Notes under the pieces: model-generated
The model's input: the letters and a program-made list of their open reading frames with translations, nothing else
Databases searched by the model: none
What the model was told of the DNA's origin: nothing
NCBI GenBank assembly: GCA_018396915.1
Contig: JAGTRD010000006.1
Location: 8,128-46,011, forward strand
Source of the DNA: Candidatus Bathyarchaeota archaeon
Lineage (GTDB): Archaea > Thermoproteota > Bathyarchaeia > 40CM-2-53-6 > RBG-13-38-9
Direction of reading: 5' to 3'
DNA length: 37,884 nucleotides
Made by a program: the position numbers and the translations under genes
In this document: one piece after another, positions 35,341 through 37,884 of the stretch
Layout: each line of letters starts with the position of its first letter
Numbering within the stretch: position 1 is the first letter of the stretch

Positions 35341-35814
35341 TTGGCTGAAAGGAAGCTGAGATTCAGGATTAAACGTGGAGAGTATGAGGTTGAGCTTGAG
35401 GGTGACTTCGATTATGTGAGGGAACGTTTCGAGAGATTAATGGAGAACTTCCCCCAAGAGGGCAAGATCCAAGTGGCTTCAGGGTTGGAAGATGTCTCAA
35501 GGTCTGATTTGCTGAGAGGCATAGTTGAATTCAGCGAGGAGGGGAAGCCTAGACTCACTGTTCCAGTAGACTCATTGAAGGCGAAGGAGGCTTTGGCTCT
35601 CATCCTCTATGCGACCAGACCTGCGGCTGTTGAGTGTGTTGAGTTGAGTGGACTCCTCAGTTCGAGCTGGAAGACTATGAAGCCTGAGGCTGTCAGGGCT
35701 AGGGCTAGTGAGTTGAGGAGGGAAGGGTTGCTTGTGGCTGATGATGGGCGGTATACGTTATCTGGGGCTGGTGTGCAATGGGTTGAGAGCCAGATTCTTC
35801 CAAGATTAAGATAG
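35341..35814 (+). CDS. Winged-helix protein, paralog 1 of 4
   Basis: A 157-residue protein, start TTG. Three parts can be seen: an N-terminal beta-rich module (RFRIKRGEYEVELEGDFDYV, residues 5-24) followed by an amphipathic helix, a middle linker leading to RLTVPVDSLKAKEALALIL, and a C-terminal winged helix (from about 95) ending VRARASELRREGLLVADDGRYTLSGAGVQWVE. It shares this plan with the next three genes, so they are tandem paralogs. There is no known enzyme motif. DNA binding is inferred from the winged-helix pattern; the biological target is unknown. Confidence 0.7.
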   Translation: MAERKLRFRIKRGEYEVELEGDFDYVRERFERLMENFPQEGKIQVASGLEDVSRSDLLRGIVEFSEEGKPRLTVPVDSLKAKEALALILYATRPAAVECVELSGLLSSSWKTMKPEAVRARASELRREGLLVADDGRYTLSGAGVQWVESQILPRLR

Positions 35815-35816
35815 TT

Positions 35817-35838
35817 TAACGTATACGTTACGTTAACG
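35817..35838. promoter_or_regulatory. Palindromic operator candidate between paralogs 1 and 2
   Basis: TAACGTATACGTTA (35817-35830) is a perfect 14-bp palindrome, followed at once by the perfect 8-bp palindrome CGTTAACG (35831-35838). Both share the core half-site CGTTA/TAACG. They lie 19 bases upstream of the TATA box of paralog 2, where a repressor or activator of that promoter would be expected. The neighbouring winged-helix proteins are natural candidates to bind here. Confidence 0.55.
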
Positions 35839-35857
35839 GCATACTTTTCAGATATCC

Positions 35858-35864
35858 TTATATA
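35858..35864 (+). promoter_or_regulatory. TATA box of winged-helix paralog 2
   Basis: TTATATA lies 33-39 bases before the TTG start of paralog 2 (35897), placing transcription start close to the start codon, so the message would be leaderless or nearly so. Confidence 0.5.
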
Positions 35865-35896
35865 CCAACATTGTATAAAGTAACATTTGAACCGTC

Positions 35897-36370
35897 TTGA
35901 AAGTCAAGCTCATACTCCACAGAAGCTACGGAGACATCGAGCTCGAAGGGGAAAACTTCGACGAATTGATAGATAGATTAAAAGAGTTTCCAGAATGGCT
36001 GGAGGTAATAGACAGCATAATCTCATCCCAATCTACGGTGGTCAGCGAGAAAGATATTCTCTCAGGAATAGTCCAGGTTACAAGTGAGGGCCCGGTACTG
36101 ACAGTATCAAGGGACAAATTGACCGACAGAGAAGCGGTGGCCTTACTGCTCTATGCGATGGACCCGAAGGGCCTCAGACCCAGAGAATTGAGCAGACTCC
36201 TGAGCCTCAGCGGGTTCCTCTCAGTAGGGTTCGCAAGTAGGCTGAGCGAACTGAAGAGAGAAGGCCTGACCTACAGGGAAGGGGACGTATACAAACTGAC
36301 GGTAGCAGGTAAGAACTGGGTGGAGAAGACGGTTAAAACGATCAAGTATGGTGGAACACCTGTTGAGTGA
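35897..36370 (+). CDS. Winged-helix protein, paralog 2 of 4
   Basis: A 157-residue protein with the same plan as paralog 1: beta module (LILHRSYGDIELEGENFDE), helix, then PVLTVSRDKLTDREAVALLLYA, and a winged helix (PRELSRLLSLSGFLSVGFASRLSELKREGLTYREGDVYKLTVAG). Start TTG, preceded by the palindromic element and a TATA box, so it begins a transcription unit that also includes paralogs 3 and 4. Its end overlaps paralog 3 by 23 bases. Confidence 0.7.
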   Translation: MKVKLILHRSYGDIELEGENFDELIDRLKEFPEWLEVIDSIISSQSTVVSEKDILSGIVQVTSEGPVLTVSRDKLTDREAVALLLYAMDPKGLRPRELSRLLSLSGFLSVGFASRLSELKREGLTYREGDVYKLTVAGKNWVEKTVKTIKYGGTPVE

Positions 36371-36860
36371 TGAGAATCTTGTCGAGGTTCGAATCAGATA
36401 CAGAGACCTTGAGAAAACCGTGAGAGGAAACTCTAACGAGGTTATCCGTGAGGTTATAAACTTTCTATCCGAACATTTTCCCAAACTCGACCTCATATCA
36501 AAACTCACCCTCACAGTCGATGAGGAGCAACTACTAAACACCTGCTCAAAAATAATGAAGATCACACCTGAAGGAGTTGTAATAACAGTCCCAACTGAAA
36601 ACCTGACAGACCGTGAACTCATCCTCCTCCACCTACTCAAGACCCATACAGGCTACATCACAAAGAAGCTCGATACAGATAAGGCCATGATAGGCGACCT
36701 CATAGCCTACACCAGAAAACCAGCTGGAACAGTAGCTGGCAGGATAAGTGAAATGTGCACTGAAGGCTTGGTGGAGAGGATAGGTAAAGGTGAGTATCGA
36801 ATAACAACATACGGGCTTGACTATTTCATCAAGAACATCTACCCTAAACTATCATCTTGA
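36348..36860 (+). CDS. Winged-helix protein, paralog 3 of 4
   Basis: A 170-residue protein overlapping the end of paralog 2 by 23 bases. Beta module VEVRIRYRDLEKTVRGNSNE, a longer middle (FLSEHFPKLDLISKLTL ... GVVITVPTENLTDRELILLHLL), then a winged helix (IGDLIAYTRKPAGTVAGRISEMCTEGLVERIGKGEYRITTYG). The middle linker includes the pair of Thr/Asp residues shared with paralogs 2 and 4. No active site is recognisable. Confidence 0.7.
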   Translation: MVEHLLSDENLVEVRIRYRDLEKTVRGNSNEVIREVINFLSEHFPKLDLISKLTLTVDEEQLLNTCSKIMKITPEGVVITVPTENLTDRELILLHLLKTHTGYITKKLDTDKAMIGDLIAYTRKPAGTVAGRISEMCTEGLVERIGKGEYRITTYGLDYFIKNIYPKLSS

Positions 36861-36876
36861 AATGGTTGGTGGAGTT

Positions 36877-37401
36877 ATGAGTCAGACATCAAAATTGAGA
36901 GTTCAGATAGAGCATGGAGAATTTAAACATACGATAGAGGGTGAACCTGAGGAGGTCCTGAAGGCTATCAGTCACTATATCTCAGAAATATACCCGACAT
37001 TCGAAGTCGCATCTAAACTGATCTACAATCCAGACTATATGGCACTTTTAAGAGAGGTCTCAAACCTTGTAAAATTGACATCTGACGGTAAACCGTTACT
37101 TTTGAGGTCAGACTTATCGACCGACGAGGCTGCAGGTGTGATTCTCTTAGCCATCCAGATAGCCAATAGACTCGGCAAGAGAGATGGAGACGACGCGCAG
37201 ATAGAGGAGATATCTGCAACCATCGGTAAGGCGCCGAAGACAGTCCAAAACACCCTGACAGAGATGTGTAAAGCAGGGATCGTGGAGAGGGTTGGTAAAG
37301 GAAGCTACAGGCTCACCCTAGCCGGCGTCATGGAGATCCAGGAGACCATCAAAACACTGAAGGAAGGTTTGGAGAATTATGGCGCAGCTGGGTCGAACTA
37401 G
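36877..37401 (+). CDS. Winged-helix protein, paralog 4 of 4
   Basis: A 174-residue protein counted from ATG 36877, which has GGTGGAG just upstream; the frame is open from further left but the earlier Met codons lie inside paralog 3. It has the beta module (LRVQIEHGEFKHTIEGEPEE), helix SHYISEIYPTFEVASKLIY, DLSTDEAAGVILLAIQIA, and a winged helix (IEEISATIGKAPKTVQNTLTEMCKAGIVERVGKGSYRLTLAG). The GIVERVGKGSYR end is nearly the same as in paralog 3, indicating recent duplication or selection on the wing. Next downstream is the NurA-like gene. Confidence 0.7.
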   Translation: MSQTSKLRVQIEHGEFKHTIEGEPEEVLKAISHYISEIYPTFEVASKLIYNPDYMALLREVSNLVKLTSDGKPLLLRSDLSTDEAAGVILLAIQIANRLGKRDGDDAQIEEISATIGKAPKTVQNTLTEMCKAGIVERVGKGSYRLTLAGVMEIQETIKTLKEGLENYGAAGSN

Positions 37402-37402
37402 C

Positions 37403-37456
37403 CGCGGGAACTGCGGGTAGGTGCGGAGGCCGCAGGAGTTGGGGGGAACTCCCGCG
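37403..37456 (+). promoter_or_regulatory. GC-rich three-way-junction RNA upstream of the NurA-like gene
   Basis: Unlike the surrounding sequence, this 54-nt stretch is about three quarters G+C. It folds with no gap between helices: P1 CGCGG (37403-37407) with CCGCG (37452-37456), P2 CUGCGG (37411-37416) with CCGCAG (37430-37435), P3 GAGUU (37436-37440) with AACUC (37447-37451) closing a GGGGGG loop. The P2 terminal region can add GCGG/CCGC pairing. A ribosome-binding run GGGGGGAG (37458-37465) and TTG (37470) follow directly. This is the layout of a cis-acting leader controlling translation, or of a small RNA processed from the message. No known riboswitch is recognised. Confidence 0.5.
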
Positions 37457-37469
37457 AGGGGGGAGTAAA

Positions 37470-37884
37470 TTGACCTACCGCACCCACACTATAGAGTTTG
37501 AACATTCTAAGATAAGTAGATTACTGTTAGATGGATCCAGGGATACTCTCTTACCTAACTTCCTACTGGAATTAAGCAGTGAATCAATGAAAGGCCTGAA
37601 TGGGTTAGGGTTCAAGCCTAGGGACCTCACTGAGATGGAGGCAACTCTTGAAGAGGAGGTTCCTGAGCCGCCCGCAATCCAGTTAAAGGACGATAATTTA
37701 ATAGAGAGACCGACACCCATAGAGCCCGCCTTCGAGAAGTGTCCAGTCGTCGCTGTAGACGTATCAAGTATCAGGATAGGTGAATCGGAGCAGGGCCTAC
37801 TCTACTCTCTTAGAGGAGCGATTGTATGGAGAATCGGCTCCTCCTACAACTTTACCAGATGCGGACCCATAACATTCCACCTCA
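37470..37884 (+). CDS. NurA-like nuclease, N-terminal part
   Basis: The gene starts with TTG after GGGGGGAG and runs off the window; 138 codons are visible. After an N-terminal helical region (LLLDGSRDTLLPNFLLELSS), the sequence PVVAVDVSSIRIGE matches the metal-binding Asp strand of NurA nucleases, followed by GLLYSLRGAIVWRIG. NurA works with the HerA ATPase and Mre11-Rad50 in archaeal double-strand-break repair. HerA would be expected next but lies outside the window. The assignment rests on one motif and fold pattern, so it is moderate. Confidence 0.6.
   Translation, partial: MTYRTHTIEFEHSKISRLLLDGSRDTLLPNFLLELSSESMKGLNGLGFKPRDLTEMEATLEEEVPEPPAIQLKDDNLIERPTPIEPAFEKCPVVAVDVSSIRIGESEQGLLYSLRGAIVWRIGSSYNFTRCGPITFHL

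Follow-up and report, generated by a model that had tools for sequence, protein, structure and literature searches.

Winged-helix genes beside a second NurA-HerA pair in Candidatus Bathyarchaeota: phylum-wide linkage, age and a possible role in local control

The role of the archaeal HerA-NurA motor-nuclease is contested, having been placed in end resection, in defence or in fork repair (PMC12977600). In a Candidatus Bathyarchaeota archaeon, four genes for small winged-helix (WH) proteins lead directly into a NurA-family gene, and the question raised by this locus is what such proteins do beside a motor-nuclease. The stretch of DNA analysed here (the window, 37,884 nucleotides) corresponds to positions 8128-46011 of contig C6, from a 1.63-Mb genome that is 96 % complete. 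A second HerA-NurA lineage, apart from Mre11-Rad50 and with its own predicted operators and partners, is a natural separation-of-function case, and the WH family comes with short, defined candidate DNA targets that are directly testable. A preliminary description, made from the window alone, had suggested that the system might be undescribed, and in the literature that we searched (open-licence papers) no description of this arrangement was found.

The four genes lie on the forward strand at the right end of the window: WH1 (35341-35814, 157 aa, TTG start), WH2 (35897-36370, 157 aa, TTG start), WH3 (36348-36860, 170 aa, ATG start) and WH4 (36877-37401, 174 aa), for which the ATG at 36877 was taken as the start, the mechanical open reading frame beginning at a TTG at 36817. 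WH1 ends 82 bp before WH2, which itself runs 23 bp into WH3, and gaps of 16 and 68 bp follow WH3 and WH4, respectively, so that the last three were rightly called overlapping or nearly so. The gap between WH4 and NurA2 (37402-37469) is strikingly GC-rich, contains short inverted repeats and is conserved in the sister genome. That the four are paralogs of 157-174 residues, each with a beta-module and a winged helix, is borne out by the reading frames, by their end-to-end alignment (22-38 % identity to WH1), by a single profile that finds all of them (with exactly four matches genome-wide, all at this locus) and by the AlphaFold2 model of WH3 (62 rows, mean pLDDT 90.4). In this model, strands at residues 12-18 and 21-27 are followed by helices, another hairpin (70-79) and a winged helix (88-169), the N-terminal module being a short beta-hairpin/helix unit. 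The supposed pattern of conserved wings and diverged beta-modules did not hold, since pairwise identity among WH1-4 is 21-36 % in the N-terminal module and 18-41 % in the winged helix-turn-helix (wHTH), a similar divergence in both.

The WH family lies outside every Pfam and NCBIfam model: for WH1-4 no Pfam model scored above its curated cut-off, and the weak matches were winged helices. Among solved structures, the AspA wHTH comes nearest to WH3 in fold (E 1.2e-3; 26-28 % identity across some 85 residues), a similarity also recovered by sequence profile (E 0.004); the match is weak and limited to the wHTH part, with a TM score of 0.67-0.80 by target and 0.35-0.40 by query.

NurA2 begins at 37470, and its N-terminal part, with the first catalytic motif AVDVSS, occupies the window to its last base (37470-37884, forward strand); the gene continues to C6:46722 across a 10-N assembly gap (C6:46012-46021), which falls inside NurA2 at the right end of the window. 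In the sister genome NurA2 is intact (371 aa). The identification of this gene as NurA-like stands, given that its C-terminal part matches the Pfam NurA family PF09376 at 36.9 bits (curated cut-off 21; 37.4 bits for the intact sister protein) and that the NurA aspartate motifs (motif I D, DG and R-x-D) are present as AVDVSS, LLDGSL and FRVDID, the residue of the third catalytic motif being Glu in type III NurA. A sequence search of the PDB with NurA2 returned nothing useful. At the next codon, past the window end, starts HerA2 (C6:46723), a 479-aa HerA-family ATPase and a member of the FtsK-HerA superfamily. It matches the DUF87/HerA central domain at 53.2 bits (cut-off 23.2), and its best solved relative is SsoHerA (4d2i, E 1.4e-14); against the NCBI equivalog HerA_Thermprot (NF040937) it reaches 28.7 bits, the cut-off being 800. 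Its Walker A (GRKGTGKS) and FLFAEEAH (with the EE of Walker B) are largely invariant in our alignment A3. The closest named relative, the Bathyarchaeota MAG QZM_A2_bin_35, has a HerA2 98 % identical, which places the host in Bathyarchaeia. HerA2-NurA2 may be an active translocase-nuclease.

NurA2-HerA2 is the second NurA-HerA pair of this genome and is without Mre11-Rad50. The canonical NurA-HerA-Mre11-Rad50 operon stands on contig C15 (L004, 7885-14259), and in the tree the HerA2 clade is apart from the local canonical HerA. Of the HerA, Mre11 and Rad50 genes envisaged beyond the window, HerA does follow, whereas Mre11 and Rad50 are absent downstream on C6 and accompany the canonical pair on C15. 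There, the reading frame of Rad50 stays open ahead of the first ATG/GTG/TTG, which suggests a non-standard start codon; a frameshift was considered and rejected, the upstream frame being open and devoid of these three codons. At one other locus (L051, genome G061), HerA2 is followed, at a distance of about 2 kb, by genes resembling Mre11 and Rad50, with a Nudix-like gene intervening, and at another (L073, G053:C17) a canonical-type NurA-HerA lies no more than a few kb downstream of NurA2-HerA2, so that both systems stand together.

Our survey covered genomes within the phylum (mostly MAGs) plus viral contigs. HerA2 orthologs occur in about half of 101 relatives and in 121 of 398 genomes sampled phylum-wide at a threshold of E 1e-20. 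An iterative profile search yielded 117 WH reading frames at 41 loci, nearly all directly upstream of NurA2-HerA2. Of the 80 named loci, 67 extend 3.5 kb or more beyond HerA2 on its upstream side, and a WH-family gene adjoins the pair in 66 of these. The proposed link between the WH family and NurA/HerA, with HerA just outside the window, recurs across the phylum, in Bathyarchaeia, in Nitrososphaeria and, in other classes, at most loci. Outside Bathyarchaeia (in Nitrososphaeria and the other classes), one or two forward WH genes are found together with r, a highly conserved member of the WH family that is divergent from the adjoining NurA2 in most loci; r was found neither in the window genome nor in any further genome sampled from its order. 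With r called at E 1e-30, r and HerA2 occur together in 95 of the 398 genomes (119 with HerA2, 102 with r; Fisher p 2e-59), and all 93 same-contig pairs lie within about 1.5 kb. A fold search with r, from a weaker model (pLDDT 74), gave generic winged helices only, with Hop2 at the top (2mh2, E 0.008).

Seven genomes, from three families, have r without HerA2, and in the six inspected r and WH genes adjoin a different, deeply diverged NurA-HerA pair; in families f10, f14, f17 and f18 the WH genes adjoin yet another lineage. NurA and HerA of both diverged lineages were confirmed by Pfam in the members tested, and the three WH-associated HerA lineages form separate clades in the HerA tree, so the association outlasts the divergence of the pair itself. 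There are also WH genes apart from NurA2-HerA2 (L107-L109) and NurA-HerA pairs devoid of WH genes (L066, L070, L071, L216, L222, L228). Solitary WH1-like genes were seen elsewhere in the genome, with no NurA-HerA, at L104, L105 and L106 (families f3, f5 and f2), and a single WH2-like gene lies near GatDE at L102 and L103 (G069, G091), in genomes where NurA2-HerA2 was not recognised. WH genes often stand directly after GatD-GatE (L092-L099, L107-L109, L184, L187, L209, L215); in the window genome GatD-GatE lies about 4.4 kb downstream of HerA2. Several extra wHTH genes of 90-120 aa, mostly on the strand opposite to WH, accompany the second NurA-HerA lineage (L092-L101, L110), and a protein of about 230 aa (PRRLS..LVAYLNAGADKEY..) recurs beside WH genes at L058, L107, L230, L232 and L234; the one copy searched had no Pfam match.

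Array growth with differing ligands had been suggested, and the phylogeny speaks against it. In a tree of 117 WH proteins, grouping is by line and not by genome: WH2, WH3 and WH4 form well-supported ortholog lines that extend across the class, the WH1 line extends across the order, r is a single clade, and the order of the paralogs is fixed across the class. A recent expansion of the array was rejected on the strength of these old orthologous lines. Comparison of the window genome with its sister gives dN/dS values of 0.29 for WH1, 0.03 for WH2 (the most constrained paralog), 0.14 for WH3 and 0.19 for WH4; the value for the C-terminal part of NurA2 is 0.11 and that for HerA2 is 0.07. As far as sequence comparison can tell, the WH paralogs are an ancient, stable and non-interchangeable set under purifying selection.

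The same data bear on whether NurA2-HerA2 might degrade foreign DNA in antiviral defence with the WH proteins as sensors, a link to defence having been raised in the preliminary description. HerA-nuclease pairs do protect bacteria against phage, and a part in defence has been proposed for archaeal HerA-NurA (PMC12977600); moreover, the top PADLOC match of HerA2 is mad8 (64 bits). HerA2 nevertheless reached only 42.8 bits against the HerA_antiphage equivalog (cut-off 800), and, generic HTH apart, no effector model matched NurA2, WH or r. WH proteins match the defence libraries solely through this generic HTH, the Csa3/CARF models included, with no match to the CARF ligand-binding domain. Against defence also stand the inheritance of HerA2, which tracks families (vertical) with retention phylum-wide, the housekeeping genes that flank the locus (including those 3' of HerA2 on C6), and purifying selection with no diversification. 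A pattern-plus-tblastn search of the viral collection found no relative, and on this ground a mobile or viral origin was rejected. Defence is therefore not supported; it fits worst of the readings considered, and we hold it to be very unlikely.

In the gap between WH1 and WH2 lies a candidate operator of the WACGTW type, TTAACGTATACGTTACGTTAA (35816-35836, no strand assigned), which is kept in 5/5 genomes of the family and whose core, GTATACGTWACGTT, has one exact match in the whole genome. In the window's family this conserved element stands just upstream of an archaeal TATA-like box, CTTATATAC (35857-35865, forward strand), recognised by sequence and conserved in the alignment. In the window genome, WH2-WH3-WH4-NurA2-HerA2 is probably a single transcription unit, preceded by this palindromic site and its TATA box (35816-35865). 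In families f1, f2, f5, f9, f13 and f16, one to four WACGTW palindromes lie within 120 bp upstream of the WH arrays (mean 2.5 per promoter, compared with 0.04 for 193 upstream regions taken as controls); these six families were chosen after inspection, and pooling all 29 loci gives p 2e-23, related genomes not being independent. At L042 one such site is a perfect palindrome of 29 bp. Families f3, f4, f6, f23 and f24 lack WACGTW sites or nearly so.

Where r is present, the region between r and NurA2 contains a conserved 23-bp palindrome near TTGYRCANNNTGNNCATGCRCAA, with a TTTAAATA-like box immediately after it, so that the palindrome abuts the TATA box of NurA2. The tie of this site to r is computationally clear: the palindrome outscores every shuffled control in 52 of the 58 r-bearing loci and in 1 of the 16 that lack r (p 4e-10). 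In 7 of the 8 genomes searched it was found at its own locus with 0-1 mismatches, every other match having two, and one genome (G331) gave no match; the site is essentially single per genome. A regulon under the palindromes was considered and rejected, as the sites look local. Family-specific palindromes that stand at the genes' own promoters, are tied to those genes and are local are the signature of an autoregulating DNA-binding protein.

Based on these associations, we consider, with about an even chance of being right, that WH/r may be DNA-binding proteins that are dedicated to controlling the second NurA-HerA motor-nuclease and that regulate themselves locally. WH/r proteins would bind the palindromes at r|NurA2 and at the WH promoters as oligomers, the pairing of palindrome and protein being suggested by genomic association, and would thereby keep the expression of a motor-nuclease capable of destroying double-stranded DNA locally tuned; in most other lineages, r and NurA2 are transcribed divergently across the 23-bp palindrome. 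The N-terminal module might sense a DNA or protein signal, upon which expression would change. Thermococcus HerA-NurA cleaves both DNA strands irrespective of end structure (PMC12977600), which makes tight control plausible. Counting against the regulator reading are the three to four conserved paralogs, which exceed the need of a simple autoregulator, the WH genes apart from NurA2-HerA2, the WH-less pairs and the families poor in WACGTW.

The excess of paralogs, together with the position of the WH genes where Mre11-Rad50 stand elsewhere, makes direct loading of the motor a live rival, which we regard as possible though rather doubtful. WH hetero-oligomers would attach to broken ends, forks or special sites in the DNA, where they would recruit or gate HerA2-NurA2 in place of Mre11-Rad50. 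At L216 and L228, as in the canonical operon, Mre11-Rad50 hold the neighbourhood beside NurA-HerA that WH genes hold at other loci; several non-interchangeable paralogs have been retained over long evolution, and the linkage persists through three diverged NurA-HerA lineages. The promoter palindromes tied to WH/r genes, however, appear regulatory, and some genomes carry WH genes away from any recognised NurA-HerA. If WH proteins do load the motor, archaea would possess a DNA-processing complex of a new kind.

AspA, the nearest solved fold to WH3, is the centromere-binding protein of AspA-ParB-ParA, the partition system carried by the Sulfolobus plasmid pNOB8; the AspA gene is preceded by a 23-bp palindrome to which the protein binds and from which it spreads (PMC5120986). 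This shared feature led us to consider a site-directed role in chromosome maintenance, by analogy with AspA, in which WH/r would bind one chromosomal palindrome in a centromere-like manner and HerA2 would pump or resolve DNA there. The r|NurA2 palindrome is likewise 23 bp long and essentially single per genome, and archaea have no FtsK (PMC12977600). On the other side, the similarity to AspA is weak and confined to the wHTH, no ParB/ParA neighbour was recognised on reading the neighbourhood ORF lists, and the position abutting the TATA box suits plain autoregulation; we hold this role to be improbable. The more specific proposal that AspA-like WH proteins nucleate on the single palindrome and load a Mre11-Rad50-independent HerA-NurA, for site-directed translocation or processing of DNA in the chromosome maintenance of these FtsK-less archaea, seems to us unlikely.

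Compared with known systems, the locus resembles the canonical archaeal NurA-HerA-Mre11-Rad50 operon in having adjacent genes for a NurA-family nuclease and a HerA-family ATPase that keep their catalytic motifs; it differs in having WH/r genes instead of Mre11-Rad50, in its separate HerA clade and in coexisting with the canonical operon. With AspA-ParB-ParA (PMC5120986) it has in common a wHTH, although the match in fold is weak, a small overlapping operon and a 23-bp palindrome upstream of a gene, whereas the WH proteins have an extra N-terminal beta-module and a nuclease-translocase partner, with no ParB/ParA seen in the ORF lists. Pyrobaculum nurA-csm6-herA and the bacterial HerA-Sir2 and HerA-DUF4297 defence systems likewise join a HerA-family motor to a nuclease or effector partner (PMC12977600), while here the partners are wHTH proteins, inheritance is vertical and no CRISPR or effector context was seen. 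Finally, the archaeal wHTH regulators (HVO_A0261, HVO_A0114, MarR, the Csa3 HTH and AbiEi) have the winged helix in common with the WH proteins and match them weakly by profile, but the Pfam matches of WH are below curated cut-offs, CARF is unmatched, and the N-terminal module sets the WH family apart.
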